From IMG/VR virus record IMGVR_UViG_3300005289_000452, positions 1 through 22,564 of that record: a stretch of DNA of 22,564 bases, one strand, 5' to 3'. Source of the stretch: a virus. The notes under the pieces were generated by a model. The model did not search any database, had not been told where the DNA came from, and saw only the letters and a list, made by a program, of their open reading frames with translations. The translations under genes were made by a program, and so were the position numbers. Below, one piece after another: positions 1 through 16,673 of this stretch (position 1 is the first letter of the stretch; the number at the start of each line of letters is the position of its first letter).

Positions 1-2180
1 GAATTGAAATCTCAAAACGGTCTTATGATATTTTGGTGAACCAGATTGGTTTTCCTGCTGAAGATATCATTTTCGACTTGAATATTTTCCCGGTAGCTAC
101 AGGGATGGATGAGCACAGGAAAAATGCCATCGACTTTATAGAAGCTACCCGATGGGTGAGACAAAACCTTCCTTATGCTTCTGTAAGTGGAGGAGTGAGT
201 AATGTTTCTTTCTCATTCCGTGGAAATGATACCGTAAGGGAAGCTATGCATTCAGTATTTCTTTATCATGCCATCCAGGCAGGAATGAACATTGGAATTG
301 TAAACCCTGCAATGCTGGAAGTGTATGATGAAATCAATAAAGAACTTCTGGAGCTTGTAGAAGATGTTATTCTTGATAAGAGAGAAGATGCTACAGAAAG
401 ACTTCTTGATTATTCCGAAAAACATAAGTCGGTAAAAAAAGAAAAAACAGAAGATTTAGAATGGCGAAACAATCCTTTGCAGGAAAGAATTACGTATGCA
501 TTGGTAAAAGGGATTGACCGTTTTATTGAAGAAGATGTAGAAGAAGCAAGACAGGCCGCTGAAAAACCCCTTCATGTCATAGAAATTAATCTGATGACAG
601 GAATGGGAGTGGTAGGAGATTTATTTGGAAGTGGAAAAATGTTCCTTCCGCAAGTAGTAAAGTCAGCAAGAGTAATGAAAAAAGCAGTTGCTTATTTACA
701 ACCTTATATTGAAGCTGAAAAAGATGGTTCAAGACCTGCCAATGGAAAGATTCTAATGGCAACAGTAAAAGGAGACGTTCATGATATCGGTAAAAATATT
801 GTAAGTGTAGTGTTAGGCTGTAACAATTATGAAATCGTTGATCTTGGAGTGATGGTACCTGCCGAAAAGATTATTCAGACAGCCATTGCAGAAAAAGTAG
901 ATGTCATCGGACTAAGTGGGTTAATCACCCCAAGTTTGGATGAAATGGTGTATATCGCTTCTGAATTAGAAAGACAAAACTTGGATTTTCCTTTATTGAT
1001 TGGGGGAGCTACTACATCAAAAGCACATACTGCCGTGAAAATCGATTTAAAATATAAAAATGCAGTTGTTCACGTGAATGATGCCTCAAGAGCTGTGAAT
1101 GTAGTAAGTTCATTGTTGGGTGACCGGAATAAAGAATATGTTTCAGATTTAAAGAATGATTATTCAGATTTCAGGGAAAAGTTTCTGAACAGACAGGTTG
1201 ATAAAGACTATGTATCAATTGAAGAAGCAAGACAAAGTCATTTTACCATTGATTGGGAGAATGAAGAAATTTTTACACCGAATAGCTTAGGTATAAGAGT
1301 TTTTGAAAACCAGGATTTGAATGAGCTTCTTCCTTTTATAGACTGGTCACCGTTTTTCAGAAGCTGGGACCTACATGGGAAATATCCGAATATTTTAGAA
1401 GATGAGGTAGTAGGGGTTCAGGCTAAAGAATTATTTAAAGATGCTCAGGTTATTTTAAAAAGAATTTTAGATGAAAAACTATTAACGGCAAAAGCGATCT
1501 TCGGAATTTTTAAAGCCAACTCCAATGAGTCCGACGATATCTTAATCTTTGATGAGAATAATAATGAGCAGGCTAAATTTTTAACTTTAAGACAGCAGGC
1601 TCAAAGATCAAAAGGAAAAGAATATCTGGCTTTAAGTGATTTTATCGCTCCTCAAAGTTCGGGAAAGACAGACTATGTGGGAGCCTTTTGTGTGACTACA
1701 GGCTTTGGAACAGATGAATTGTCTGCTGAATATGAAAAAGCCAATGATGATTATAATTCCATCATGGTAAAAGCATTGGCTGACCGTTTTGCAGAAGCCT
1801 ATGCCGAATTTTTACATAAAAAAGTAAGAACAGAGTACTGGGGCTATGCCAACCAGGAAAGCTTAAGCAATGAAGATCTGATTGCCGAAAAATACAAAGG
1901 AGTTCGTCCGGCACCCGGATATCCGGCTTGCCCTGACCATTTGGAAAAGAAAACAATCTGGGATCTTTTAAAAGTAGAAGAAAATATTGGCGTTTACCTT
2001 ACTGAAAGTTTAGCCATGTTTCCTACAGCTGCTGTTTCCGGATACTATTTCGGAAGCCCGCATGCAAAATATTTCGGTTTAGGAAAAATTACAGAAGACC
2101 AGCTTAAAGACTATGCTGCAAGAAGAGGTTGTAGCATTCAGGAAGCAAGAAAGTGGTTGTCACCCAACTTAGCAGATTAA
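1..2180 (+). CDS. metH: Cobalamin-dependent methionine synthase, C-terminal part (5' end outside window)
   Basis: Transfers the methyl group of 5-methyltetrahydrofolate to homocysteine through cobalamin in the cytosol. The frame is already open at position 3 (reads [11 protein letters not shown]), so the gene starts upstream of the window; the TTG at 33 is not a start. Visible in order: the end of the pterin-binding domain, the cobalamin-binding domain with the DxHxxG motif (Asp codon at 774, His codon at 780, sequence GDVHDIGKN), and the C-terminal AdoMet reactivation domain with [12 protein letters not shown] (Arg codon at 1905). About 726 codons are present. Flavobacteria often carry the homocysteine-binding domain on a separate gene, so the protein may lack it; this cannot be seen here. 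metF follows 92 nt later, and its product supplies the methyl donor. Confidence 0.96.
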
Positions 2181-2206
2181 AAAAAGTTTATAGTTCATGG
2201 GTGAGA

Positions 2207-2254
2207 GTTGATAGTTTGTTTACAAATCAAAACTCTTAGCTATCAACTATCAAC
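2207..2254. repeat. Inverted repeat in the metH-metF spacer
   Basis: GTTGATAGTT at 2207-2216 is the exact reverse complement of AACTATCAAC at 2245-2254, with 28 nt between them. The right arm also has a near-tandem copy (CTATCAACTATCAAC). It could fold in the metH-metF transcript, or be a short dispersed intergenic repeat of the host. No T-run follows, so it is not a standard terminator. Confidence 0.5.
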
Positions 2255-2272
2255 CAACAACTAAAATATAAC

Positions 2273-3232
2273 ATGAAGATAACAGAACACATTAAAAACG
2301 CAAATGGAAAAACTTTATTCTCCTTAGAAGTTGTTCCACCACAGAAAGGAATCGGTATTGAAGATCTGTATACGAACATAGATCCGCTGATGGAATTCAA
2401 ACCTCCGTTCATTGATGTTACCACTTCAAGAGAGGAATATATCTATCTCGATAAAGGAAATGGCCTGATGGAACGTCGTATTACAAGAATGCGACCTGGA
2501 ACATTGGGAATCTGTGCAGCTATTCAGCATAAATATAATGTAGATACCGTGCCACATTTATTGTGTGGAGGATTTACAAAAGAAGAAACAGAATATCTTT
2601 TGGTAGACTGTATGTATCTTGGAATAGATAATGTTATGGCATTAAGGGGAGATGCAATGAAAGGACATCAGTATTTTGAACCTACCCAGGGAGGGCATGC
2701 CAGTGCTATGGATCTCGTGAACCAGATTAATAACCTGGGAAGAGGGAAGTACCTTCATGATGAAGATCAGATTTGTGATGAACTTAATAAATTCTGCATA
2801 GGAGTGGCTGGTTATCCCGAAAAACATATGGAGGCACCTTCCATGAATTATGATCTGAAGTGGCTCAAGGAGAAAGTAGATGCCGGAGCAGATTATATTG
2901 TAACTCAAATGTTCTTTGACAATAAAAAGTATATTGAATTCGTTCAGAAAGCAAGAGAAATGGGAATTACCGTTCCTATTATTCCGGGAATTAAACCTAT
3001 TGCAACAAAGAAGCATCTGAAAATTCTCCCGCAGGTATTTAAAATAGACCTTCCGGAAGAACTGATCACAGCTGTGGAAAATGCCAAGAATAATGAAGCT
3101 GTAAAGCAGATAGGAGTAGAATGGGCAATTGCCCAATGCAGAGAACTGCTGGATTTTGGAGTTCCTGTTTTACACTTTTACTCAATGGGGAAAAGTGATA
3201 ATATAAAGAAAATTGCTAGTGAGTTGTTTTAA
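2273..3232 (+). CDS. metF: 5,10-methylenetetrahydrofolate reductase
   Basis: Reduces 5,10-methylenetetrahydrofolate to 5-methyltetrahydrofolate using FAD, feeding the upstream methionine synthase. The 319-aa length fits a full single-domain MetF. The N-terminus reads TLFSLEVVPP, with the catalytic Glu at residue 19 (equivalent to Glu28 of the E. coli enzyme). The TIM-barrel signatures follow: VMALRGD near residue 124 and ADYIVTQMFFDN near residue 207. The ATG at 2273 fits the family's N-terminus. It is co-oriented with metH and probably co-transcribed. It is the last host gene before the phage and appears intact. Confidence 0.97.
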   Translation: MKITEHIKNANGKTLFSLEVVPPQKGIGIEDLYTNIDPLMEFKPPFIDVTTSREEYIYLDKGNGLMERRITRMRPGTLGICAAIQHKYNVDTVPHLLCGGFTKEETEYLLVDCMYLGIDNVMALRGDAMKGHQYFEPTQGGHASAMDLVNQINNLGRGKYLHDEDQICDELNKFCIGVAGYPEKHMEAPSMNYDLKWLKEKVDAGADYIVTQMFFDNKKYIEFVQKAREMGITVPIIPGIKPIATKKHLKILPQVFKIDLPEELITAVENAKNNEAVKQIGVEWAIAQCRELLDFGVPVLHFYSMGKSDNIKKIASELF

Positions 3233-3330
3233 GTGCTTTGTTTAAAGGGTTTGTACTTAATTTAAATTGTCCTTAATTTTAATTTACACCATTTAAATAG
3301 TTAAAAAATATTTAAAAAAATGTATTTTTG

Positions 3331-3355
3331 TTCAGACATTTTTCAGACATTTTTC
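3331..3355 (+). repeat. 11-nt tandem repeat at phage left edge, candidate attachment or arm site
   Basis: The unit TTCAGACATTT occurs twice in direct succession (3331-3341 and 3342-3352), followed by TTC. It lies between metF and the ATG of the integrase, where an attL core or integrase arm sites are expected. A -7-like TATTTTTG (3323-3330) directly precedes it, but no TTTG lies 19 nt upstream. The real att core needs the right end of the phage or an empty site for comparison. Confidence 0.4.
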
Positions 3356-3357
3356 AA

Positions 3358-4554
3358 ATGGAAATAGAAATAAAACTAGACAAAGGCAAGTTAAGAAAAA
3401 AAGGGCATCCAATTATCATAAGTATTTTTGTTAGCAAAAATGATAGACAATACCCAGTAACCGGGTATTATTCAATACCTGAAGATTGGAATGATCAGAA
3501 AAATATTCCAAAGAGTTCGCATCCGTTATATCATGGTTTGATGGAATTTGTGCACAAAGCCAATATGAAAATTAATAAGATTATTGAAAGAAAAAGTTTG
3601 ATGTCATCTGAAGAGATAAAGAATTTTATACTGAATGACAATCCGGACTCTCTGGTTAAATTCTGGGTTAAATATGTCGAAGAAATAAGGAAAAACGGCA
3701 GTGAAGGGAATGCAAAAACTTACGAGGATAGATTAAAAGCCTTGACATCATTTAGATCAGAAGTTCTGTTTAAAGAAGTAACATACGATTTTTTAGTAAA
3801 GTATAAAGAATTTCATTTTTCAAAAAGAACTAAATCAGGTAAAAAATCGGTTTCAAACAATACTATGACATTGTATTTAAAAACAATGAAAACAGTAATA
3901 AAAGAAGCTAAAAAAAGGCGACTTTATATTCCGGAAGATTCATATGATCCTTTTGACGGTATATATCCAAAATCGACACCAACCAAGGATAAATATCTAA
4001 GCATAAATGAAATGAGGATGATTATAAAATTTGATTATAAGCATAAGTTTTATGACTTCTTTGTTCTTTGTTTCTTACTTGGTGGTATCGATTATATTGA
4101 TCTTAAAAATTTGACATATGATCATGTTAAAAATGGAAGGGTGGTTTTTGAAAGGTTTAAAGGTGGAACCCATGAGGTAATCAATAATTATATATTCCCC
4201 CATGCCTGGGTTATTTTAGAAAAATATAAGGACGAAAGTGGTTACTTACTGCCAATTCACAAATTAGAAAAAGAAAGGTTTCAATTCAGAGACTGCTATA
4301 TGCATAAAATAAGACGGTGGATTAAAAGTATAGGTATTGATTCATATGTTTCAACAAAAACGCCCCGATACACATTCATTAATATAGGTAAGCAGCTACT
4401 GTTAAGCCGTGATATTATTATGGAGTTAACGGGACATTCTCATGGTGATGTACATTCAATATATGAAGGTAAATACCCAGATCATGTAAAAGATGAAGTT
4501 CATCGAAAAATAATAGATTCTGTGTTTCCTGATTGGATGAATGATATTAAGTAA
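3358..4554 (+). CDS. Tyrosine recombinase / phage integrase
   Basis: Catalyses site-specific integration and excision of the phage. From the ATG at 3358 the protein has 398 aa. An upstream in-frame TTG at 3328 lies inside the tandem repeat and is rejected as start. The N-terminal arm-type domain is about residues 1-90, a SAM-like core-binding domain about 98-200, and the catalytic domain about 210-390. Box II reads STKTPRYTF with Arg337, followed by LTGHSHGDVHSIYEG with His360 and the nucleophile Tyr369. The first catalytic Arg expected near LLGGIDYIDL (about residue 244) is not visible, as in some Bacteroidota integrases of the IntDOT type. A terminator follows the stop. Confidence 0.93.
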   Translation: MEIEIKLDKGKLRKKGHPIIISIFVSKNDRQYPVTGYYSIPEDWNDQKNIPKSSHPLYHGLMEFVHKANMKINKIIERKSLMSSEEIKNFILNDNPDSLVKFWVKYVEEIRKNGSEGNAKTYEDRLKALTSFRSEVLFKEVTYDFLVKYKEFHFSKRTKSGKKSVSNNTMTLYLKTMKTVIKEAKKRRLYIPEDSYDPFDGIYPKSTPTKDKYLSINEMRMIIKFDYKHKFYDFFVLCFLLGGIDYIDLKNLTYDHVKNGRVVFERFKGGTHEVINNYIFPHAWVILEKYKDESGYLLPIHKLEKERFQFRDCYMHKIRRWIKSIGIDSYVSTKTPRYTFINIGKQLLLSRDIIMELTGHSHGDVHSIYEGKYPDHVKDEVHRKIIDSVFPDWMNDIK

Positions 4555-4562
4555 TAAAAAAT

Positions 4563-4583
4563 GCCCCGGTTGGGGCTTTATTT
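4563..4583. terminator. Hairpin terminator between convergent genes
   Basis: GCCCC (4563-4567), loop GGTT, GGGGC (4572-4576), then TTTATTTTT. An A-run precedes the stem, so the hairpin can serve both the rightward integrase and the leftward gene that ends at 4584. Seen directly; function inferred from form and place. Confidence 0.85.
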
Positions 4584-5123
4584 TTACCAGTTATCATCTG
4601 TTTTAGTGTATTTAGAAATGTCAAAAATATCATTAAAAGTATAATTTAGTACTTCTGAATCTCTCTTTAAAAATCCATTCTTAAACTCATTTGATCCTCT
4701 TTTTAATGCTACTTCTTCTAAATTGTTTCTGGTTTGAACATCACTCATTGTAGCAATTGACAAGTAGGAAAAGTCATACATAATATTATTTACTGTTACC
4801 CTATATTTCCCTTCTTTTAAATCAATCGTAACGCCGCCAATGAAAACGCCATTTCCTATATACATAGACATGTTTCCTGGGCTATATCCCATATCTCTAT
4901 ACTTGACTTTTAGATCTTTAAATTTTAGTGTTATAGTATTGTCGTTATTGGAAATGTCATAAAAATAGGATACCGTTTTGAGTTTGGCTAAAATTTGTTC
5001 AGGCGAATAATTTGTCTCATATATTTTTTGCCATGAAACTTTATTATTTTTTGCAATAAAATTATCTTTTTGCGCAAAGGATAAGAAAGGAATAAACAGT
5101 AAGATGTAAATTAAATTTTTCAT
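4584..5123 (-). CDS. Secreted protein of unknown function, candidate lysogenic-conversion gene
   Basis: 179 aa with a clear Sec signal peptide (MKNLIYILLFIPFLSFAQ) and no lipobox cysteine, so probably periplasmic or exported. The mature part is mixed alpha/beta with WQKIYETNYSPEQILAKLK near the start; this resembles DUF4468-type (TBP-like fold) Bacteroidota proteins, but the match is by eye and weak. It lies between the integrase and the repressor, on the repressor strand, with 73 nt upstream that hold a Bacteroidota promoter candidate. That place and its own promoter suggest expression in the lysogen as a moron. It has no obvious role in phage growth. Confidence 0.75.
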   Translation of the reverse strand: MKNLIYILLFIPFLSFAQKDNFIAKNNKVSWQKIYETNYSPEQILAKLKTVSYFYDISNNDNTITLKFKDLKVKYRDMGYSPGNMSMYIGNGVFIGGVTIDLKEGKYRVTVNNIMYDFSYLSIATMSDVQTRNNLEEVALKRGSNEFKNGFLKRDSEVLNYTFNDIFDISKYTKTDDNW

Positions 5124-5138
5124 GATTAATTTTTAAAA

Positions 5139-5166
5139 CAAATATATAAATTTAAAAAAGTTCAAA
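5139..5166 (-). promoter_or_regulatory. Candidate promoter of the secreted-protein gene
   Basis: On the minus strand TATATTTG (5146-5139) matches the Bacteroidota -7 element TAnnTTTG, and TTTG (5166-5163) lies 16 nt upstream; the usual spacer is about 19. The start codon is 16 nt downstream of the -7 box. Moderate support because of the short spacer. Confidence 0.5.
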
Positions 5167-5196
5167 AATTACGGAAAGCCATAATGTAAATTTATC

Positions 5197-5871
5197 TTAC
5201 AATCTATTATACCTTACGGAAGCATTTACAATTGCAATTGTTTTTATTTTTGAGAGCAAAATGTCTTTAGGTTCATGATGTTGATTATATGAAACTAACT
5301 GTATATAATCAGCCCCAATGTTAGATTTTTTTACATATTTAATTACTTTAAATTCTGATAATTCATCTTCTCCATAATATTCAACATAATACATTTCTCC
5401 ATATATTATATCTAGTCTATTAATAATTTTTAAAGCAACAATGTCTCCCGATTTTAAAAGCGGATACATTGAGTCTCCTGTCATAAAAATAGCGCCATCA
5501 CTTTTAGGTAGATTCGGAATGCTTAAGTAACTTAATACATTACCTTTCTCTGAACCTCCAAAAATTTCTAATAATCCTAATGTTGCAGTAGAATCATATA
5601 CTGGCACTGTTTGTATATCAAAAACAGGATCAATTGTCTTCCTGTTTCCTTTTACTCGATCTATTAAATCAATTGGGACTTCTGTTGGTTTAGTATTTAA
5701 ATGCGAAAAATCAGTGTATTTGTCGAAGAAGAAATCTACTGATTTTGGTATTGTGTTTATATCGCCCTCCCAATTTTGAACAGTTCTCATTGAAACACCA
5801 ATCTCATTTGCTAATTGAGTCTGTGTTAATTTTAATTCTTTTCTTTTATTTCTTAATTCTTTTCCATTCAT
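5197..5871 (-). CDS. Phage repressor, XRE helix-turn-helix fused to S24 peptidase domain
   Basis: Probable lysogeny repressor of the CI/LexA type. Residues 1-55 form an XRE helix-turn-helix (ELKLTQTQLANEIGVSMRTVQNWE). A linker follows, then an S24 domain with the catalytic Ser134 in GDSMYPLLKSGD and a Lys in IKYVKK (about residue 178). The place where LexA-type proteins have the Ala-Gly cleavage dipeptide reads STATLG, so the scissile Ala is replaced by Leu. Divergent from the rightward early operon across a 166-nt spacer holding its likely operators. Length (224 aa) is normal. Inferred function: holds the rightward early promoter off in the lysogen. Confidence 0.92.
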   Translation of the reverse strand: MNGKELRNKRKELKLTQTQLANEIGVSMRTVQNWEGDINTIPKSVDFFFDKYTDFSHLNTKPTEVPIDLIDRVKGNRKTIDPVFDIQTVPVYDSTATLGLLEIFGGSEKGNVLSYLSIPNLPKSDGAIFMTGDSMYPLLKSGDIVALKIINRLDIIYGEMYYVEYYGEDELSEFKVIKYVKKSNIGADYIQLVSYNQHHEPKDILLSKIKTIAIVNASVRYNRL

Positions 5872-5890
5872 AATCAGAAAGTTACTATTA

Positions 5891-5946
5891 AAATACGAAA
5901 ATTATTCATATTTTATTTGTAAATACGAAAAATCGGTGTATATTTG
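5891..5946 (+). promoter_or_regulatory. Early rightward promoter with candidate repressor operators
   Basis: TTTG (5916-5919), a 19-nt spacer and TATATTTG (5939-5946) match the Bacteroidota consensus, giving a start near 5953 and a leader of about 85 nt before the ATG at 6038. The motif AAATACGAAAA occurs at 5891-5901 and 5921-5931, exactly 30 nt apart; the second copy sits in the promoter spacer, where a bound repressor would block polymerase. A minus-strand TACATTTG (5975-5968) could be the repressor's own -7 element, but no good -33 box is seen for it. Confidence 0.72.
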
Positions 5947-6037
5947 TATCAGTATTACAACGAGATGCAAATGTAAATAAAAATCTCACTACTAAAAAAT
6001 AGTAATAATACGGTAATTAATAAAAATAAAATAACAT

Positions 6038-6313
6038 ATGGCAGTATTACAAAATGGAAAGCCAATTAGTGAAGATCTTTCAAAATTTTTAAGAAGCTTC
6101 ACCGGACCAAAGGACATGGCTGACGTAAGTATGGACACTGATGTTAGCATCTCAACTATTAGAGATGTGAAGCACAGGAGAAATAATATCTCTGAAGAAA
6201 ATAAAAAAGCAATCTTAAAACTAATTCAAAGAGCTGTATATAATGCAGATGGAAAAATAAAAGAGGCTAAAGATGGCAAGAAAAAAGTGAAACAAATTAT
6301 AGACTGTATTTAA
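6038..6313 (+). CDS. Small early phage protein, probable DNA-binding
   Basis: 91 aa, first gene of the rightward early operon. Residues 25-65 could form a helix-turn-helix (MADVSMDTDVSISTIRDVKHRRNNISEENKKAILKL in outline), followed by a Lys-rich tail (KEAKDGKKKVKQ). Position next to the repressor and this outline suggest a Cro- or CII-like regulator; no family is recognised with certainty. One base separates its stop from the next start, so the pair is probably co-translated. Confidence 0.7.
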   Translation: MAVLQNGKPISEDLSKFLRSFTGPKDMADVSMDTDVSISTIRDVKHRRNNISEENKKAILKLIQRAVYNADGKIKEAKDGKKKVKQIIDCI

Positions 6314-6314
6314 C

Positions 6315-6590
6315 ATGGATAATATGATAAAAATTCCAGAAGGTTACGTTTTAGTACCCGTTATATGGGCGGAGCGTTATTTTAATAGGTCTTTTTGGTT
6401 AGATATTCAAGAACCTACAATAAAGGAAATTTCAGAATACTTAGAAATTAGTATTGAGAAAGTAAAAAAAGACTTAAGAAATATTGATTGCCCGCTTAGA
6501 ACATCTCATAAAGGTAAATCAGGGAGAGGTAACCAGAGTAAATTCCACAAGTATTCGGTAGAGGAATACAAAAACTGGATTAGAAAATAA
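6315..6590 (+). CDS. Small phage protein with helix-turn-helix-like segment
   Basis: 91 aa. The middle segment (ISEYLEISIEKVKKDL, about residues 39-54) looks like a helix-turn-helix, and the C-terminus (KYSVEEYKNWIRK) resembles the end of MerR/excisionase-like winged helices. The N-terminal EGYVLVPVIWAERYF is not assigned. Second gene of the early operon, so an excisionase or regulator role is possible but not shown. Confidence 0.68.
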   Translation: MDNMIKIPEGYVLVPVIWAERYFNRSFWLDIQEPTIKEISEYLEISIEKVKKDLRNIDCPLRTSHKGKSGRGNQSKFHKYSVEEYKNWIRK

Positions 6591-6593
6591 AAT

Positions 6594-6617
6594 GAGCCAC
6601 CTCGGCAAAGGTGACTC
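6594..6617 (+). other. Strong RNA hairpin in leader of next gene
   Basis: GAGCCACCT (6594-6602) pairs with AGGTGACTC (6609-6617) at eight of nine positions, loop CGGCAA. No T-run follows, so it is not a classical terminator. It lies 35 nt before the ATG at 6653. Similar hairpins stand in front of several later phage genes. Confidence 0.55.
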
Positions 6618-6652
6618 GGTCAAATCAAAGTAACTCCGTTAAAAATTACAAC

Positions 6653-7054
6653 ATGGCAAATTTAACAAAAAAAAGAATTCTAGGAAAGGAAATTAAAAAG
6701 TCTGAGTTCTACAGACGCAATGTCGCGAGAACTTATAGAGAGATGATTTTTGGTTGGGTGAATTTGGAGGGTGGAGAAAGAATCAAAGTAGAGTATGGGA
6801 AGTATTATATAATTAATAAGGAAGGAGAGAGGTCCGGAATTATTTTGAATACTAACCCAGGACATAAGATCATAAAGAGATTAATTGCGAGATGGTTTTC
6901 GACTTATCGTAAAGGATCAAAGGGCGGACAGATGCATCATGTTGAGTATTGGAAGTCTAGAGTATTGGATGGATTGAGAAATATAAATCTCTTTAAGTAC
7001 TCCGGTATAAGCTTTAAAGAAAACCGGTCTAACTTTTTAAAACTTGCATCATGA
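6653..7054 (+). CDS. Phage protein of unknown function
   Basis: 133 aa, Lys/Arg-rich and probably nucleic-acid binding. No family is recognised. The ATG at 6653 (MANLTKKRILGKE) is chosen over a GTG at 6611 because that GTG lies in the 3' arm of a stable hairpin. The protein has FYRRNVARTYREMIFGWV near residue 20 and a basic stretch RLIARWFSTYRKGSKGG near residue 80. The stop overlaps the next start (ATGA at 7051). Confidence 0.65.
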   Translation: MANLTKKRILGKEIKKSEFYRRNVARTYREMIFGWVNLEGGERIKVEYGKYYIINKEGERSGIILNTNPGHKIIKRLIARWFSTYRKGSKGGQMHHVEYWKSRVLDGLRNINLFKYSGISFKENRSNFLKLAS

Positions 7055-7131
7055 GAATTATATTTCTTCTCAAATGCTGGTTTCTACAGCAGTTTATACA
7101 CGTAATCGAATATTTACTTAAAAAACAATAA
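7051..7131 (+). CDS. Very small ORF, 26 aa, translationally coupled
   Basis: Starts inside the stop of the preceding gene (ATGA) and ends 2 nt before the next ATG, filling the gap exactly. The product begins MRIIFLLKCWFLQQF and is hydrophobic with a basic tail. The exact spacing favours a translated gene or a coupling peptide. It is too short to judge from composition. Confidence 0.4.
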   Translation: MRIIFLLKCWFLQQFIHVIEYLLKKQ

Positions 7132-7133
7132 TC

Positions 7134-7325
7134 ATGAACATAACCGACTACTTGCAAAAACCAATTGCCGAAAGAAAACAAATTATTTCTGAACCGGTAG
7201 GGATTAAAGATCAGTTTTGGTTGGAAAGACTTAAAACGGCTTTTAAATTTTCTAATCCATTGGCTGTTTCGCTACATCAAACACTAGTAGAAGAATACTG
7301 GACCCTTAAAAAATATGCAGCATGA
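7134..7325 (+). CDS. Small phage protein of unknown function
   Basis: 63 aa (starts MNITDYLQKPIAERKQII). Predicted mostly helical, no signal peptide, no recognised family. Its stop overlaps the next start (ATGA at 7322). It belongs to a run of four tightly packed small genes leading into the DGR targets. Confidence 0.6.
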   Translation: MNITDYLQKPIAERKQIISEPVGIKDQFWLERLKTAFKFSNPLAVSLHQTLVEEYWTLKKYAA

Positions 7326-7465
7326 CAGTATCAGTTACAATCATAGTAGAGAATCAAGGCGGTATCTGGTATGTAAACCACAAGCGCCTTGGACATGATA
7401 AGCTTTCCGAGATGGAAACTACGGCACTAAACGAATTTATCAAAGAATTTAAACAATCAAAATAG
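7322..7465 (+). CDS. Small phage protein, 47 aa
   Basis: ATG at 7322 overlaps the preceding stop; stop TAG at 7463-7465, 6 nt before the first DGR target gene. The sequence begins MTVSVTIIVENQGGIWYVNH and has a beta-rich start and a helical C-terminus. No family recognised. Spacing and coupling support it as a real gene. Confidence 0.55.
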   Translation: MTVSVTIIVENQGGIWYVNHKRLGHDKLSEMETTALNEFIKEFKQSK

Positions 7466-7471
7466 CATTAA

Positions 7472-7927
7472 ATGGAAACATTAAAAATTCAAATCCCTGA
7501 GGGCTTTCAAGTGGAAAGCTTTGACAAAGTAACTGGAGAAGTAAAGCTTTCTCCAAAGCCTAAAAACATAATGGAGGTTATCAAAACTTTCTCAGATGTT
7601 CTGAAACATTTAAAAATTGACGAAGATTGGTTTGAAGAAAACAATGATGGATTATCTGGTGACGAAATTGCTTATCGCCAAGTTAAGCTAATTGTAAAAA
7701 CTTTAAATGAGGGATGGGTTCCGGACTGGACAAATTCAAATGAAACCAAATATTATCCATGGTTCAAAATGGGTTCTTCTTCTGGTTCGGGGTTTTCGTG
7801 TCGCGTCTGCGTTGGCTGGGATTCGCATTCGCTTTTCGGCTCTCGCCTTTGCTTTAAAAGTAGAGATCTTGCAGAATATGCGGGAGAACAATTTACTGAA
7901 ATTTATAAAAAATACATGACCATTTAA
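7472..7927 (+). CDS. DGR target (variable) protein 1
   Basis: 151 aa, hypermutation target. Residues 1-30 are extra relative to the second target. Residues 60-100 contain the shared QVKLIVKTLNEGWVPDW and KYYPWFKM. The variable part runs from Gly101 to about Arg125 (SSSGSGFSC, then ten variable residues around the fixed Trp116, then FGSRLCFKS). The variable residues are 111-115, 117, 119, 121 and 122. The W...GSR layout resembles the C-type-lectin-like fold of other DGR targets, though the protein is short and the VR is followed by a conserved 26-residue helical tail (RDLAEYAGEQFTEIY). No signal peptide, membrane segment or tail-fibre repeat is seen, so the protein is probably cytosolic. Confidence 0.92.
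   Translation: METLKIQIPEGFQVESFDKVTGEVKLSPKPKNIMEVIKTFSDVLKHLKIDEDWFEENNDGLSGDEIAYRQVKLIVKTLNEGWVPDWTNSNETKYYPWFKMGSSSGSGFSCRVCVGWDSHSLFGSRLCFKSRDLAEYAGEQFTEIYKKYMTI
7772..7845 (+). repeat. DGR variable repeat VR1
   Basis: Aligns without gaps to the TR at 8346-8419. 16 of 18 TR adenines are replaced (two A's kept, at 7821 and 7827); all 56 other bases are identical. The last ten bases, TCGGCTCTCG (7836-7845), contain no adenine and match the TR exactly, the expected place of the initiation-of-mutagenic-homing site. Identity breaks just beyond: CCTTTGC in the VR against ATTTTGT in the TR. Confidence 0.96.
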
Positions 7928-7938
7928 AATACAACAAC

Positions 7939-8316
7939 ATGAAAATTACAGAAAAAGTAAAAAGCTTTGAAGACGCTTGTCAAATATTGGGGATTGAGTC
8001 AAATATACCACAGGTAGAAATGTTACCTGAAAACCATCAAAAAGCAATTATCGCTCATTATAAACTCGTGATTATAGCTCAGGCTTTAAACGAAGGGTGG
8101 AAACCAAATTGGGATGATGATGATGAATATAAATATTATCCTTGGTTTGATATGGAAGGTTCTTCTTCGGGTTCGGGGTTTTCGTGTGACGGCTTCGTTG
8201 ACTGGGGTTCGCTTTCGGATGTCGGCTCTCGCCTTTGCTTTAAAAGTAGAGAGCTTGCGAGATACATTGGGGAAACATTCGTTGATCTGTACCGAGAATA
8301 CTTTGTTTTAGATTAA
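7939..8316 (+). CDS. DGR target (variable) protein 2
   Basis: 125 aa, paralogue of the preceding gene, starting 11 nt after its stop. Shared elements are YKLVIIAQALNEGWKPNW (residues 41-58), KYYPWFDM (65-72), SSSGSGFSC (75-83), the fixed Trp89, GSRLCFKS (96-103) and a helical tail RELARYIGETFVDLYREY. The variable residues are 84-88, 90, 92, 94 and 95. The N-termini of the two targets differ, so they are an old duplication or independent captures with a common C-terminal module. No export signal. The acidic run DDDDE precedes KYYPWF. Confidence 0.92.
   Translation: MKITEKVKSFEDACQILGIESNIPQVEMLPENHQKAIIAHYKLVIIAQALNEGWKPNWDDDDEYKYYPWFDMEGSSSGSGFSCDGFVDWGSLSDVGSRLCFKSRELARYIGETFVDLYREYFVLD
8158..8231 (+). 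repeat. DGR variable repeat VR2
   Basis: Aligns without gaps to the TR. 15 of 18 TR adenines are substituted (A kept at 8189, 8201 and 8219) and no other base differs. The terminal ten bases TCGGCTCTCG (8222-8231) match the TR. The next 20 nt downstream are identical to those after VR1 but differ from the TR flank, as expected for IMH against IMH*. Confidence 0.96.
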
Positions 8317-8345
8317 AAATACCGGTTGTGTGATGTCATAGTTGT

Positions 8346-8419
8346 AGTTCTTCTTCAGGTTCAGAGTTTTCGTGTAACGACTACGATAACTGGAATTCGA
8401 ATTCGAATATCGGCTCTCG
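8346..8419 (+). repeat. DGR template repeat TR
   Basis: Adenine-rich, invariant donor between target 2 and the reverse transcriptase. Read in the VR frame it encodes SSSGSEFSCNDYDNWNSNSNIGSR. The variable codons are AAC, GAC, TAC, GAT, AAC, AAT, AAT, AAT and ATC; the AAY codons are the classic DGR design, giving many residues but no stop. TGG and TCG codons without adenine stay fixed. It is probably transcribed as part of the operon; no separate promoter was found just upstream. Confidence 0.96.
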
Positions 8420-8526
8420 ATTTTGTAAAGTAATTACATCACAAACCATACCTCTTGGTAAAAAAGAACAAATTTTCAAAGGCGCTGGTAGCTATTGTGA
8501 AAGCGACTTTTTAAAAAGCAAAGGTT

Positions 8527-9480
8527 ATGAAAAGAGTTGGAAATATATATCAACAAATAATAAGTGTCGAAAATTTAATCGAAGCAGATGGAAAGGCACA
8601 AAAAGGAAAGTATAAGCAATATGGAGTTATAAGACATAATAGAAATCCTGATCAAAATATTTGGGATCTTCATAAGATGCTAAGAGATAAAAATTACAAG
8701 ACTTCAAATTATGATGTTTTTAAGGTTTATGAACCAAAGGAAAGAGAGGTATTTAGACTGCCTTATTTTCCAGACCGTATTACACATCACGCTATTATGA
8801 ATGTCTTGGAACCAATCTTTTTGAAAGTATTTACATCCGATTCTTACAGCTGTATTAAAGGCAAAGGCATTCATGCTGCTTCTTTTGCAGTTCGAAAATC
8901 TCTTAAAAATGTAGAAGGAACAAAATACTGTTTAAAATTAGATATTAGAAAGTTTTATCCAAATATTGATCATGACATTCTGAAGTCGCATTTAAGAAGA
9001 AAATTTAAGGATAAGGACCTTATTTGGCTTCTGGATGAAATAATTGACAGTGCGCCTGGTTTACCAATTGGTAATTACCTAAGTCAATATTTTGCAAACT
9101 TTTATCTGACCTATTTTGATCACTGGATTAAAGAAGCTTTGAAAGTTAAATATTATTTCAGATACGCGGATGATATTGTAATTCTTAGTAATGAAAAGGA
9201 AAATCTCCAGCAAATACTAAAAGCTATCAAAGAGTATTTTGAAATACAGTTAAAGCTTGAAGTTAAAGATAACTGGCAAATTTTCCCGGTTGAAAGTAGA
9301 GGAATCGATTTCGTTGGATATGTACACTTTCATACACACACTTTGCTTAGAAAATCAATTAAAAAACGATTTGCAAGAATGCTTAAAATAAAACCAAAAA
9401 GAGAATCAATCGCCTCTTATTATGGATGGGCAAAACATTGCAATTCAAAACATTTACTTAAAAAGTTACTACTGAAATGA
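8527..9480 (+). CDS. DGR reverse transcriptase
   Basis: 317 aa, normal for a DGR RT. It copies the TR RNA to cDNA with errors at adenines; the cDNA then replaces a VR. Motifs in order: FRLPYFPDRITHHAIMN (residues 76-92), the first catalytic Asp139 in LKLDIRKFYPNIDH, GLPIGNYLSQYFANFYL (178-194) with the Ser-Gln (186-187) typical of DGR rather than retron or group II RTs, YADD (213-216) with catalytic Asp215 and Asp216, and the GY motif near residue 264. No maturase or endonuclease domain. ATG at 8527 is preceded by AAAGG. The stop overlaps the next start (ATGA), so the next gene is coupled. Confidence 0.97.
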   Translation: MKRVGNIYQQIISVENLIEADGKAQKGKYKQYGVIRHNRNPDQNIWDLHKMLRDKNYKTSNYDVFKVYEPKEREVFRLPYFPDRITHHAIMNVLEPIFLKVFTSDSYSCIKGKGIHAASFAVRKSLKNVEGTKYCLKLDIRKFYPNIDHDILKSHLRRKFKDKDLIWLLDEIIDSAPGLPIGNYLSQYFANFYLTYFDHWIKEALKVKYYFRYADDIVILSNEKENLQQILKAIKEYFEIQLKLEVKDNWQIFPVESRGIDFVGYVHFHTHTLLRKSIKKRFARMLKIKPKRESIASYYGWAKHCNSKHLLKKLLLK

Positions 9481-9773
9481 ACAGTTTTAAAGAATTTAAC
9501 ATTAAACCAGTGTCAGTTTCTTTTGTAGGTGACAAGGTCAGAATTAATAAAATATTGAACACTGAAATAATTGTTCATGATTATAAAATTAAGGATTCAG
9601 AAAAAAAGCCTGGTACAAAATACTTGACATTACAAATAAGTAGAAAGAATGAAAAGGAGGTGGTATTTACAGGGTCAAAAACCTTGATCGATATGATTGA
9701 GCAAGTGCCTAAAGAAAAATTTCCATTTACCACAATAATTATTCAAGAAGATCAAATGTTTCAATTCGAATAA
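9477..9773 (+). CDS. Phage protein of unknown function coupled to the DGR reverse transcriptase
   Basis: 98 aa, start overlaps the RT stop (ATGA at 9477). Predicted mostly beta strands (VSVSFVGDKVRINKIL, KYLTLQISRK, KEVVFTGSKTLIDMI), ending in an acidic FQFE. It is not like the all-helical Avd accessory protein. No family is recognised. Tight coupling makes it a candidate DGR accessory or a plain early phage gene, perhaps nucleic-acid binding. Function not claimed. Confidence 0.7.
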   Translation: MNSFKEFNIKPVSVSFVGDKVRINKILNTEIIVHDYKIKDSEKKPGTKYLTLQISRKNEKEVVFTGSKTLIDMIEQVPKEKFPFTTIIIQEDQMFQFE

Positions 9774-9786
9774 AAAAATATGAAAT

Positions 9787-10062
9787 ATGGAACCAATAGA
9801 CTACAGCCGAGGACGGAACAACGCTAATTCTAAACTCGCATTCAAAAAAGTAAAGGATACAATTCCTAAAATGTGGGAGAAGGTTTTAAATGAAGTGGAT
9901 GGGATTAAATCAACTCAGGAAATTGCAAATATATTACGTGTTCCAATACACACAATATCTGGCCGTTTTTCGGAGCTAAAAGCAAAACAAAAAATCTATC
10001 AAACCTCATCGAATAAGATCGGCAGTAAACATTATGCGGTCTATTCAAAAACAATCAATTAA
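9787..10062 (+). CDS. Winged-helix DNA-binding phage protein
   Basis: 91 aa. Residues 40-88 read as a winged helix: IKSTQEIANILRVPIHTISG (helix-turn-helix), RFSELKAKQKIYQT (end of the recognition helix and first strand), and SKHYAVYSK (wing). Basic N-terminus with RGRNNANSK. It follows the DGR block by 13 nt and precedes the recombination genes by 2 nt. Probably a regulator or accessory DNA-binding protein of the early operon. Exact family not recognised. Confidence 0.7.
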   Translation: MEPIDYSRGRNNANSKLAFKKVKDTIPKMWEKVLNEVDGIKSTQEIANILRVPIHTISGRFSELKAKQKIYQTSSNKIGSKHYAVYSKTIN

Positions 10063-10064
10063 TC

Positions 10065-10577
10065 ATGGAAAAACAATCTAAAACACACTTCAGAAAGGTT
10101 TACAAATCTGATCACCTTGGGGTTGCAGATCTGGAAGATTATCTGGAAGATGGTAAAAGGCTTGTTTTCAAAATACGAGAAGTTAAACAGGAGTTAGGAG
10201 CTACAGTAGCAGGGAAGAAGGGTAATTTCAATATAGCATATTTTGAAGAAAACATCAAGCCTCTAGTATTAAATGCAACTAATGCAGCAGTTTTGAAAGG
10301 ATTCTCTGGATCATCTTTCGTTGAAGACTGGAAGGGACTATTAATAGAGTTATTTATTGACTCTACAGTGAAAATGAAAGGTGATGTAGTAGGAGGGGTT
10401 AGAATAGTAAAAAAGCAGCCCATTATTGATACTGATCTCACAAACGAAATAAACGAATGTAAGGAAGTTTCAGAGCTTGGTAAACTATTCGGTAAAATGT
10501 CAAAAGAACAACAACATAAGTACAAAGTATTAGTTACAGAACGAAAAAAAGTATTAGAAAATGTTAAGAGTGCATGA
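10065..10577 (+). CDS. Conserved phage protein next to nuclease, unknown function
   Basis: 170 aa. The N-terminal HFRKVYKSDHLGVADLEDYLE and the middle SFVEDWKGLLIELFIDSTVKMKGDVVGGVRI look like a conserved protein common in Bacteroidota phage early regions; this is recognition by eye and its biochemical role is not known to me. The C-terminal third is helical and charged. The stop lies inside the following nuclease gene (17-nt overlap), so the two are probably one functional unit in phage recombination or replication. Confidence 0.75.
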   Translation: MEKQSKTHFRKVYKSDHLGVADLEDYLEDGKRLVFKIREVKQELGATVAGKKGNFNIAYFEENIKPLVLNATNAAVLKGFSGSSFVEDWKGLLIELFIDSTVKMKGDVVGGVRIVKKQPIIDTDLTNEINECKEVSELGKLFGKMSKEQQHKYKVLVTERKKVLENVKSA

Positions 10578-11397
10578 TTTTTCAAATTATAAGTTTCGCC
10601 CTCATGCTATAGGCAGAATAATGAAAGGACTTCCCACGCCGCTAACGCAAAATCAATCAGAAACATTAGTCGGTCTCATGGAAAAAATACATGTTGGTAA
10701 AATTACTGATAAACAAATTGTAACACTTGGAGATTTAATTAAAAAGAGGGATGCGAAACCTGAATTATCTGATGGTGCAAAAACATATCTGAAAACGATT
10801 TTTAAGGAAAAAGTTTTTAATAGAAAAAAAGAAGTCCAGAGTAAATATTTATCTAAAGGTATTTCTGTTGAAGAGGAAAATATCAATCAGTATAATGAAG
10901 TAAACGGAACTTTTCTAATAAAGAATGAGGTAAGATATGAAAACGATTACTTCGATGGAGAAATGGATATTGAGGAAAATGATGAAATAATTGATTTTAA
11001 AAGTTCCTGGGATTATGAGACATTTCCACTTTTTGAAGATGAAGTCCCAAATGAAGACTATGAGTATCAACTTCAGGCTTACATGGATCTTCGCCCAAAT
11101 GTTAAAGTCGCAAAACTAGTCTATGGGCTTGTTGATACTCCGGATGATTTGATTATTGACGAAAAACGAAGGGCAGCGTGGAAATTAGGTTTCATAGATG
11201 GTCTTCCAGAAGATCTTGATGAAGAAATTACTAAAAACATGACTTATTCGGATATTCCGAAAGAAGCAAGGATTAAAGAGTTCATCATTTATAGGGATGA
11301 AAAGAAAATATCCCAAATGAAACAAATGATAATCCTCGCAAGAGAATATCTAAACTCACTCAACACAACATTAGCAAAACACTTACAATTAATTTAA
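10561..11397 (+). CDS. PD-(D/E)XK nuclease, probable phage exonuclease
   Basis: 278 aa. Residues 100-108 (GISVEEENI) supply an acidic motif, GEMDI (133-137) the Asp136, and EIIDFKSSW (142-150) the D-x-K of the PD-(D/E)XK fold. A Gln in YEYQLQAYM (about 170-172) follows, as in RecB-, Cas4- or lambda-exonuclease-like enzymes. It likely resects double-stranded ends for phage recombination, with the SSB-like protein encoded next. ATG at 10561 overlaps the previous gene. The N-terminal 90 residues are not assigned. Catalytic residues appear intact. Confidence 0.85.
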   Translation: MLRVHDFSNYKFRPHAIGRIMKGLPTPLTQNQSETLVGLMEKIHVGKITDKQIVTLGDLIKKRDAKPELSDGAKTYLKTIFKEKVFNRKKEVQSKYLSKGISVEEENINQYNEVNGTFLIKNEVRYENDYFDGEMDIEENDEIIDFKSSWDYETFPLFEDEVPNEDYEYQLQAYMDLRPNVKVAKLVYGLVDTPDDLIIDEKRRAAWKLGFIDGLPEDLDEEITKNMTYSDIPKEARIKEFIIYRDEKKISQMKQMIILAREYLNSLNTTLAKHLQLI

Positions 11398-11409
11398 AAA
11401 CAAATAAAA

Positions 11410-11685
11410 ATGAGCAAAATAATAAATGTACGTCTTGAATTAGATAAAATCGATAAATCAAAAATTATAGTAGGCGAAAAAGGGAAGTATCTAAACATTA
11501 TTGTAGCCGAAAGGAAAGAAACAGATCAATACGGAAATACTCATACTGTATTCATCCAGCAGACTAAAGAAGAACGGGAGGCTAAAGTTGAAAAGGTTTA
11601 CATGGGCTCCGGAAAAGAGTTTGAGTTTGAAAACGATGTTAAAAACTTGGTTCCGGGTTCGGATGATGACGATTTACCATTCTAG
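11410..11685 (+). CDS. Small SSB-like protein with SSB C-terminal tail
   Basis: 91 aa. It ends in DDDDLPF, the acidic tip by which bacterial SSB proteins recruit repair and replication partners. The preceding 75 residues are strand-rich (INVRLELDKI, KYLNIIVAER, THTVFIQQT), compatible with a compact OB-type fold, but shorter than a normal SSB (about 110-residue OB domain plus linker). The neighbours (nuclease upstream, helicase downstream) fit a single-strand-binding role. The tail is seen directly; the fold is inferred. Confidence 0.75.
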   Translation: MSKIINVRLELDKIDKSKIIVGEKGKYLNIIVAERKETDQYGNTHTVFIQQTKEEREAKVEKVYMGSGKEFEFENDVKNLVPGSDDDDLPF

Positions 11686-11687
11686 CC

Positions 11688-11831
11688 ATGAAAGATAAAG
11701 ATGGATACTATATTGGCCGTGATAGCAACGGCATGTTCAAATGGAACGAAAAAAGATTAATCCGAATCGAAAACGACAAAAAGAAAACCAATGAAAAATC
11801 CAACGCAAAAATCAAAAGACAGGATAATTGA
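11688..11831 (+). CDS. Small basic phage protein, 47 aa
   Basis: ATG at 11688, two bases after the SSB-like stop, ending TGA at 11829-11831 inside the next gene (41-nt overlap). The product (begins MKDKDGYYIGRDSNGMFKWN) is very basic in its C-terminal half. Spacing is typical of this operon. Unknown function. The long overlap lowers certainty. Confidence 0.45.
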   Translation: MKDKDGYYIGRDSNGMFKWNEKRLIRIENDKKKTNEKSNAKIKRQDN

Positions 11832-12204
11832 AGTTTTTGAAAAAGAACTTATCGAAGCTTGTTGTCCGGATGGCAATATCCCAAATTCACGAGTTGCCAA
11901 ACAAGTTGAAAAAGCTAAAGCAATGGCGGTTCTTAAATACGCTAAAATGCAAAACAGACCGGTAATATATCTACGTCAAGGTCGCTGCCAATTCACTCAT
12001 GGGTTTGCTCAAAATAAACTCAGAGCAGAGAAAGCAGAGTTTAAATCGGCCAGCAATTCCGCTAAGTACTTAAATATTTCTCTTTACGCCTTAAATAAGC
12101 TTAAAGATGAAGGAAAAATAAATCCTATTCAAGTAAATAACAGATTACAATATAGGATAGAAGACCTAAAGATGTTGCAAAATACAGCGCTTATTTTCGC
12201 ATAA
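11791..12204 (+). CDS. Phage protein with C-terminal MerR/excisionase-like helix-turn-helix
   Basis: 137 aa. Residues 90-130 (SAKYLNISLYALNKLKDEGKI then RLQYRIEDLKML) have the pattern of helix-turn-helix domains used by excisionases and MerR-like proteins: a helix, a turn with YLNIS, a recognition helix, and the R.....YR.EDL ending. The N-terminal part is helical, with a CC pair (EACCPDG). It lies between the SSB-like gene and the replication genes. It could act as an early regulator or architectural protein. Confidence 0.68.
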   Translation: MKNPTQKSKDRIIEVFEKELIEACCPDGNIPNSRVAKQVEKAKAMAVLKYAKMQNRPVIYLRQGRCQFTHGFAQNKLRAEKAEFKSASNSAKYLNISLYALNKLKDEGKINPIQVNNRLQYRIEDLKMLQNTALIFA

Positions 12205-12309
12205 TACTGAATCCGGCAAAATTGATGATGTGTAAAAGTCCGGATACTCAGAATAAAATACAGGCTTACCTTGCCTGGTAAATTAAAAATTGATGTTATA
12301 AAAGAAGAT

Positions 12310-13035
12310 ATGGCAAGACCTACAAAAATTGGGTTGGACTATTTTCCTCTTAATACTAATATAGACTCTGATGATAAGATTGAGCTTGTAGAATCAGAGT
12401 TTGGAAGTAAAGGCTTTGCTGTCGTGATAAAGTTGTTTTGTAAAATATACGCTGACAAAGGATACTATTATAGTTGGACTGAGAAAGAAAAGCTTTTGTT
12501 TGCTAGGAGGATGGGTGAAACCGTTGGCTTAGTCGATGAAATTGTTAAGAGGTCGGTTAAGTGGGGATTATTTAATGAATCCGTGTTTAATCAGTTTCAG
12601 ATTCTTACCTCATCTGCAATACAAAGTAGATTTTTAGAGGCAACAAACAGGCGAGAAAAAATTGAAATGTATAAAGAATTACTACTTATTGTAGTTTCTG
12701 ATTACAAAAACGGAGTTAATGTTAACATTAACTCGATAAATGTCAACATTAGTACACAAAGTAAAGTAAATAAAAGTAAAGTAAATAAAATAAAAGAAAA
12801 TGTATACAGAGCTTTCGCTCATCTTTCAATTTCTTTTGATGAATTTGAAAAGCTTATAAATTCCGGATATAGTAAAGAGCAGATAGATTCAATACTTAAT
12901 GATATTGAGAATTACAAGAAGAATAAAAACTATACTTCATTGTATCTGACGGCTATGAAATGGCTTAAGAATAATTTTGAAAAAACCACTACTAAAGAAA
13001 TCGCAAACCAACAACCTAAAAGAAGAAAACTATGA
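12310..13035 (+). CDS. DUF4373-type phage replication protein
   Basis: 241 aa from the ATG at 12310 ([17 protein letters not shown]), the usual start of DUF4373 (Lin1244/Lin1753 N-terminal) proteins, preceded by AAAGAAG. An in-frame TTG at 12271 is rejected. Residues 1-115 form the DUF4373 winged-helix-like domain ([40 protein letters not shown]). A low-complexity Asn/Ser/Lys linker follows, then a helical C-terminal segment (residues 165-230). Phage proteins of this kind sit next to DnaB and are thought to act as initiator or helicase loader; here the stop overlaps the dnaB start (ATGA). Confidence 0.85.
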
Positions 13036-15941: not shown

Positions 15942-16673
15942 ATGACAACAGAAGAAATATTACAAAGCTGCACAATTGAAAATACGGTTGTGAAATTGCC
16001 AGAAATTCAACTTGAAAGAAACGCCTATATGGACGTTAAAAAGAAACTTGAATTGATTGGTGGTAAATGGAAAAGTGGAAAAGTTCAAGGTTTTGTTTTT
16101 GAGCAAGATCCAACCGATTTACTTTATCAAATTTCAAGTGGTGAAAAGAGAAATATTAAAAAAGAATTTCAATTTTTTGGAACACCAGATAAGCTAGCTG
16201 ATGAATTGGCAATGTATGCAGATTTACAAAATAGCGATACTATTTTAGAGCCATCAGCAGGACAAGGCGCAATTATTAAGGCCATAAATAAAATTTGTGA
16301 TGCGGTTCCAGATTGCTATGAATTAATGGATGTAAATATTTCAGTTCTACACAAATCTAATTTAATCTATTCTTTTATTGGTGCTGACTTTTTAAAAAAC
16401 AAAGGCAAATTATACTCAAAAATTATCGCCAATCCTCCATTTACAAAGAATCAGGACATAGACCATTTAAAGGAAATGTATAAATGTCTTTCAATAGGAG
16501 GAAGATTAGTTTGTGTTACTTCTGAAAGTTGGGTAATTGGCGGTCAAAAAAAGCAAATTGAGTTTAGAAGCTGGCTTAATTCAATAGATGCTGAAGTGAT
16601 TGACATTCAAAGAGGCGCATTCAAAGAATCAGGGACTATGGTTGGTGGAAAGATTGTTATCATTAACAAATAG
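15942..16673 (+). CDS. DNA adenine-N6 methyltransferase of phage type
   Basis: 243 aa. Motif I LEPSAGQG (residues 102-109) binds AdoMet; motif IV NPPF (164-167) is the catalytic motif of N6-adenine methylases. The N-terminal 80 residues (ERNAYMDVKKKLELIGGKW...) are a domain often joined to such enzymes and not assigned further. No restriction gene is next to it, so it is an orphan methylase that may mark phage DNA against host restriction. The length is short and no clear target-recognition domain is seen. Preceded by leader copy 2 and followed by copy 3. Confidence 0.88.
   Translation: MTTEEILQSCTIENTVVKLPEIQLERNAYMDVKKKLELIGGKWKSGKVQGFVFEQDPTDLLYQISSGEKRNIKKEFQFFGTPDKLADELAMYADLQNSDTILEPSAGQGAIIKAINKICDAVPDCYELMDVNISVLHKSNLIYSFIGADFLKNKGKLYSKIIANPPFTKNQDIDHLKEMYKCLSIGGRLVCVTSESWVIGGQKKQIEFRSWLNSIDAEVIDIQRGAFKESGTMVGGKIVIINK

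Follow-up and report, generated by a model that had tools for sequence, protein, structure and literature searches.

A diversity-generating retroelement (DGR) occupies positions 7472-9773 of the window, by which is meant the whole stretch of 22,564 nucleotides of viral DNA analysed here. When all lines of evidence are considered, the most probable explanation, to which we give about three chances in four, is that of a DGR of a temperate Bacteroidota phage in which an OB-fold protein works with the reverse transcriptase (RT) and the hypermutated targets are partnered proteins acting inside the host cell. DGRs usually alter the proteins with which a phage holds on to its host, and the placement of these targets among early intracellular genes thus suggests that a phage may diversify something besides host attachment.

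Template, variable repeats and reverse transcriptase

On the plus strand, the cassette runs in the order target 1 (T1), target 2 (T2), template repeat (TR) and RT (Table 1). A recount over 74 gapless positions, starting from the TR, reproduced exactly the counts of changed adenines and unchanged other sites that the earlier note had given for both variable repeats (VRs), as well as its claim that VR1 and VR2 differ from each other at TR adenines only (11 sites out of 11). The exact chance of such a placement of mismatches is 2e-14 for VR1, 4e-13 for VR2 and 8e-9 for VR1 against VR2, values so small that the pattern is not due to chance. When read in the frame of the targets, the TR contains five AAY codons, from each of which 15 amino acids are reachable, and no codon whose adenines could mutate to a stop, which is what selection of a template for hypermutation should produce.

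Table 1. Features of the cassette and of its surroundings in the window
Feature	Position	Strand	Basis or remark
Bacterial metH and metF genes	33-3232		flank preceding the integrase
Integrase	starts 3328		
S24/HTH repressor	5197-5871		
Target 1, 151 aa, PHROG 11581-like, internal VR	7472-7927	+	phrog_11581, E 1.4e-24
VR1	7773-7846	+	16/18 TR adenines changed, 0/56 other sites
Proposed IMH of VR1, in frame, G-S-R-L-C, GGCTCTCGCCTTTGC	7838-7852	+	frozen codons
Target 2, 125 aa, paralogous to target 1	7939-8316	+	phrog_11581, E 6.4e-32
VR2	8159-8232	+	15/18 TR adenines changed, 0/56 other sites
Proposed IMH of VR2	8224-8238	+	frozen codons
TR	8347-8420	+	A-site counts against both VRs
IMH* version in TR, GGCTCTCGATTTTGT	8412-8426	+	differs from VR version
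Structured RNA RT-17 (RF03020)	8444-8522	+	between TR and RT; 44.9 bits against gathering 40.4
DGR reverse transcriptase, 317 aa	8527-9480	+	motifs, structure-database match, tree
Putative OB-fold accessory, 98 aa, PHROG 19665	9477-9773	+	4-base overlap with the RT stop
Exonuclease	10561		
Replisome organiser	12271		
DnaB	13032		

The motif [ILV]GxxxSQ of the DGR clade is present in the RT, which carries IGNYLSQ and YADD, and the DGR-type motifs G..SQ and Y.DD are kept in all 148 related RTs. Among solved structures, the BPP-1 DGR RT (8ub7, E 5.8e-47) matches it best, followed by a group II intron RT (E 3.5e-16). In a phylogenetic tree, the RT groups with those of BPP-1, BalMu-1 and crAssphage LMMB, with group II RTs standing separate; the documented DGR RTs in this tree are those of BPP-1 and crAssphage LMMB, with the BalMu-1 RT lying beside them, and because the branches of BPP-1 and BalMu-1 are long, the tree is trusted for broad grouping only. 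The structure match and the tree bear out the DGR-type RT of the earlier note, and its assignment to Flavobacteriia fits as well, since the nearest RTs come from Weeksellaceae, e.g. Chryseobacterium. That the enzyme could instead be a retron, DRT or group II RT lying beside a chance repeat is vanishingly improbable: profile matches to such RTs exist, but all fall far under the NCBIfam curated cut-offs, whereas the BPP-1 DGR RT leads the PDB matches by 30 orders of magnitude, the position in the tree speaks against this reading, and A-only TR/VR pairs occur in 133 related loci. The TR/VR counts had already refuted this candidate.

As regards the genomic setting, the cassette sits in the early/replication module of the prophage, a location from which expression of the targets would presumably be early as well. 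The flanks of 14 relatives hold mostly early genes (primase, methyltransferase, RecT, ERF, RusA, ParB), and a few of them also contain head or tail-completion genes. The T1-T2-TR-RT-OB layout is kept in nearly all loci, and since the other genes of the window are not generally shared, the cassette moves as a unit. At the edge of the prophage, the integrase starts about 100 bases after the methylenetetrahydrofolate reductase gene, and the interval (3233-3328) is a probable attachment site, with the opposite end lying outside the window. Another protein encoded among the early genes, at 15942-16673, is methyltransferase-like, matching mad2 and type II MTases weakly.

Hypermutation in related phages

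Scans for related RTs yielded 80 loci in phages and 72 in genomes, and the TR/VR pairs mentioned above were found among them by an A-aware search. When these pairs are pooled, 3246 of 4707 adenines are changed against 43 of 13051 non-A sites, the latter rate being biased low because search and filter selected pairs with few non-A changes. As this ratio is flattering, weight is placed on unselected comparisons of siblings, which agree with it. For instance, two related prophages located at different chromosomal sites (L053 and L055) are identical over about 10.9 kb (2031-12945) but for 11 sites, all of which are TR adenines of VR1 (P 4e-31), while VR2 and the TR are unchanged; this cassette type is thus active in nature. 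Likewise, the TR is identical and the VRs differ among L057, L058 and L059, and again between L069 and L072, and the early target gene of two LoVEphage isolates (MW660583 and OY731433) differs at 20 sites, all inside the VR. These comparisons are those that the earlier note had proposed, and they came out as it had anticipated: near-identical phages in different hosts differ in their VRs with a constant TR, and the changes in related prophages fall overwhelmingly on adenine sites. The results that it had named beforehand as speaking against a DGR (non-A changes, an RT outside the DGR clade, identical VRs) were looked for and not found. Its claim of an active or recently active system therefore stands for the relatives, whereas activity in this very prophage is something that we infer from them.

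The only near-identical public contig (L002) equals the window over all of its 4052 bases, VRs included, and as it may share the source of the window it does not constitute an independent test of VR variation. Its identical VRs would suit a decayed or dormant DGR, with a real signature and a system that is now silent, and so would the broken second target of the relative L050 (5421-5738), which is seemingly truncated within the VR (105 aa, the VR match stopping after 39 nt). Such silence is nonetheless quite improbable, given that all parts of the cassette are intact, that the TR is devoid of stop-capable codons and that sister phages differ in their VRs only. A further arrangement is seen in Dyadobacter sp. 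CY261 (L162), in which one TR is accompanied by four VRs, a pair of which lie some 5 kb upstream and some 7 kb downstream of the RT.

Target proteins and their homing site

Homologues of T1 occupy the same position in all 41 relatives with full flanks, and the median lengths across relatives are about 155 aa for T1 and 126 aa for T2. In a tree built without the VR, 28 T1 and 28 T2 sequences split with one change, the support of the dividing branch being low, and the two proteins look like an old paralogue pair. Their VR is not placed at the C-terminus but is internal, both in the window, where 26-27 residues follow it, and in relatives, where the median is 25. The targets look soluble, and no hydrophobic stretch of the kind seen in signal or membrane segments occurs in them. 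They have no match in Pfam, NCBIfam or PADLOC and no credible one in a profile search against PDB sequences, and Foldseek retrieved nothing from the PDB and only uncharacterised phage proteins from BFVD. In the AF2 target model, helices are arranged around a poorly predicted VR (pLDDT about 50-62); in view of the VR core shared with large targets (see below), the VR may belong to a C-type-lectin-like, receptor-type domain. Of 296 Bacteroidota genomes sampled, 1 contained the target and 3 the accessory, so that both appear to be rare and phage-borne.

A homing site (IMH) embedded in the reading frame of the targets is proposed, because synonymous sites are frozen across VRs while the TR differs: the Arg codon of the IMH is CGC in 176 of 178 VRs, compared with 16% in the rest of these genes, and the codon CTT is used in 165 of 178, against 22%. 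The small targets share a VR core of 31 residues, which surrounds this site, with targets of approximately 450 aa whose VR is C-terminal, and as these large-target sister DGRs use the same IMH letters, the similarity may reflect a constraint on the DNA and not a shared fold.

The Bacteroides phages BT-TP2 and LoVEphage/BI-TP1 resemble the window in possessing an early gene of its target family with an A-specific VR, and differ from it in that this early gene is far from the RT and shares a single TR with a tail-type gene located close to the RT. In BT-TP2, the TR near the RT matches the VR of the target-family gene (13/32 A, 0/86 other) as well as the C-terminus of a large gene adjoining the RT. 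The target-family gene is unannotated, follows the repressor region closely and runs across the two ends of the record (L222), which repeat each other; the sites concerned, with those of the other repeats, are 44850-45224 and 1-300, 40348-40464, and 40633-40750. In LoVEphage (MW660583; L226, L198), a single TR lies beside a tail collar fibre gene and matches both this gene and the VR of an early gene located at a distance of 15 kb (19/26 A and 0/87 other; sites 49388-49500 and 34004-34116), the RT being split across two frames in the record.

These phages bear on the reading as an ordinary tropism DGR, according to which the small targets would be adhesins or tail accessories carried on the virion, with a VR that binds receptors of the host. 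It could draw on the tail-type genes served by the TRs of BT-TP2 and LoVEphage, on the weak match of the LoVEphage homologue, at its C-terminus, to a tail PHROG, on the resemblance of the VR core to that found at the C-terminus of the large targets of sister DGRs, and on the predominance of tail proteins among viral DGR targets (PMC8144416). However, the targets are single proteins of 125-155 aa without tail domains, set in an early module, and their similarity to large targets is limited to the 31 residues around the homing site, for which the DNA constraint could suffice. We therefore regard this reading as unlikely, albeit worth keeping in mind; a receptor or virion role is the weaker proposal, and an intracellular binding role of the targets is favoured.

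Accessory parts, proposed mechanism and comparison with known systems

The spacer between TR and RT shares sequence and structure with the Rfam family RT-17, which is named only for adjoining an RT and which is, in the window, the spacer of a DGR. RT-17 matches were also obtained in 5 of 12 relatives, and an alignment of the spacers of 70 relatives contains compensatory changes at 11 of 11 consensus pairs. RT-17 thus probably constitutes the structured 3' portion of the DGR transcript; a spacer of such a kind is needed by the BPP-1 system.

The gene that overlaps the end of the RT is the only other gene of the window that is generally common to relatives: it adjoins the RT in 79 of 80 phage RT loci and, with a widened profile, is found near 141 of 148 related RTs, whatever the type of target. 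In phage BT-TP2, the OB domain is fused to the C-terminus of the RT. The AF2 model (pLDDT 90) has a b-b-b-a-b-b topology consistent with an OB fold, and the best rows of a structure search are SSBs and the OB domain of RuvBL2, with Z of 5-7, a range flagged for common arrangements; Pfam, NCBIfam and PADLOC gave no match, and a profile search against PDB sequences no credible one. In sister large-target DGRs, the PHROG 19665 gene lies either downstream of the RT or between target and TR, the latter being the position of avd in BPP-1. No Avd-like PF05635 was detected in 24 phage records including the window, although a divergent Avd elsewhere is conceivable, and BPP-1 Avd used as a query gave no hit in the 148 loci. 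Taken together, the association with the RT, the one fusion in BT-TP2, the fold match with its middling Z, the avd-like position and the lack of PF05635 suggest that the OB-fold protein may work with the RT in place of Avd. The earlier note had called the retroelement complete within 7472-9480; TR, VRs and RT are indeed present there, but the accessory gene at 9477-9773 extends beyond these limits, and neither this conserved gene nor the structured RNA at 8444-8522 had been noticed. In some large-target DGRs, a second gene overlapping the RT end (phrog_11557; 9004-9420 in L176, 8983-9348 in L163 and 8986-9345 in L166) is perhaps another accessory.

According to the mechanism proposed here, the TR transcript, followed directly on its 3' side by the RT-17 hairpins, would be copied by the RT, which would insert random bases opposite template adenines, as shown by the substitution pattern. 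The OB-fold protein would assist by binding RNA or single-stranded cDNA, and the cDNA would then replace VR1 or VR2, its 3' end being guided by the IMH, which is present in the VRs and missing from the TR. T1 and T2 would, less certainly, be made early in infection or on induction as a partnered pair, and their variable loops might bind changing partners inside the host cell and not at its surface. If true, such intracellular diversification could help a phage to keep pace with host defences that vary or with phages that compete with it, and phage hypermutation would serve more than host attachment. More tentatively still, and with somewhat less than even confidence, the cassette may represent a widespread class of phage DGR that diversifies partnered small intracellular early proteins, with an SSB-like OB-fold cofactor replacing Avd and a coding homing site, and in which some phages template tail-type and early genes alike. 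The OB-fold partner and the RT-17 RNA offer concrete missing parts for reconstituted systems, and the cultured phages BT-TP2 and BI-TP1 make the system testable.

When compared with other known systems, the window shares with the BPP-1 DGR (brt, avd, mtd) a DGR-type RT, a TR just upstream of the RT, A-specific transfer from TR to VR and the IMH/IMH* asymmetry. In contrast to the single C-terminal VR of BPP-1, located in a tail tropism protein, and to its Avd encoded between target and TR, the window has two small targets in an early module, an internal VR with a coding IMH and an OB-fold accessory downstream of the RT. In the BPP-1 record (L217), a "variable region 2" is annotated at 33229-33558 in bbp36, adjoining an early-region exonuclease. 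The gut Bacteroidales DGRs with targets of approximately 440-480 aa (e.g. L176, L185) are closer, with RTs 56-63% identical to that of the window, the PHROG 19665 accessory and the IMH letters CGCCTTTGC, but they have a single large target with a C-terminal VR (2-7 aa left), a TR of mostly 112-125 nt against 71-86 nt in window-type cassettes, and an OB gene that can lie downstream as well as between target and TR. Bacuni phages likewise have two targets, and near-identical phages differ mainly in their VRs, whereas their targets are DUF1566/C-type lectin adhesin-like with C-terminal VRs, and Avd is present (PMC8143477). In a large survey (PMC8144416), viral DGR targets were mostly tail proteins with a C-terminal VR, a placement that the survey connects with the requirement for a homing site outside the coding sequence. 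In more than 100 loci, the cassette departs from both patterns, with an internal VR, a homing site that forms part of the coding sequence and targets located among replication genes. The core of the system is thus of an already known kind, and the OB protein or the link between RT-17 and DGRs may have been described earlier, but tandem small early targets, an internal VR with a coding IMH, an OB accessory and an RT-17 spacer form a distinct combination.
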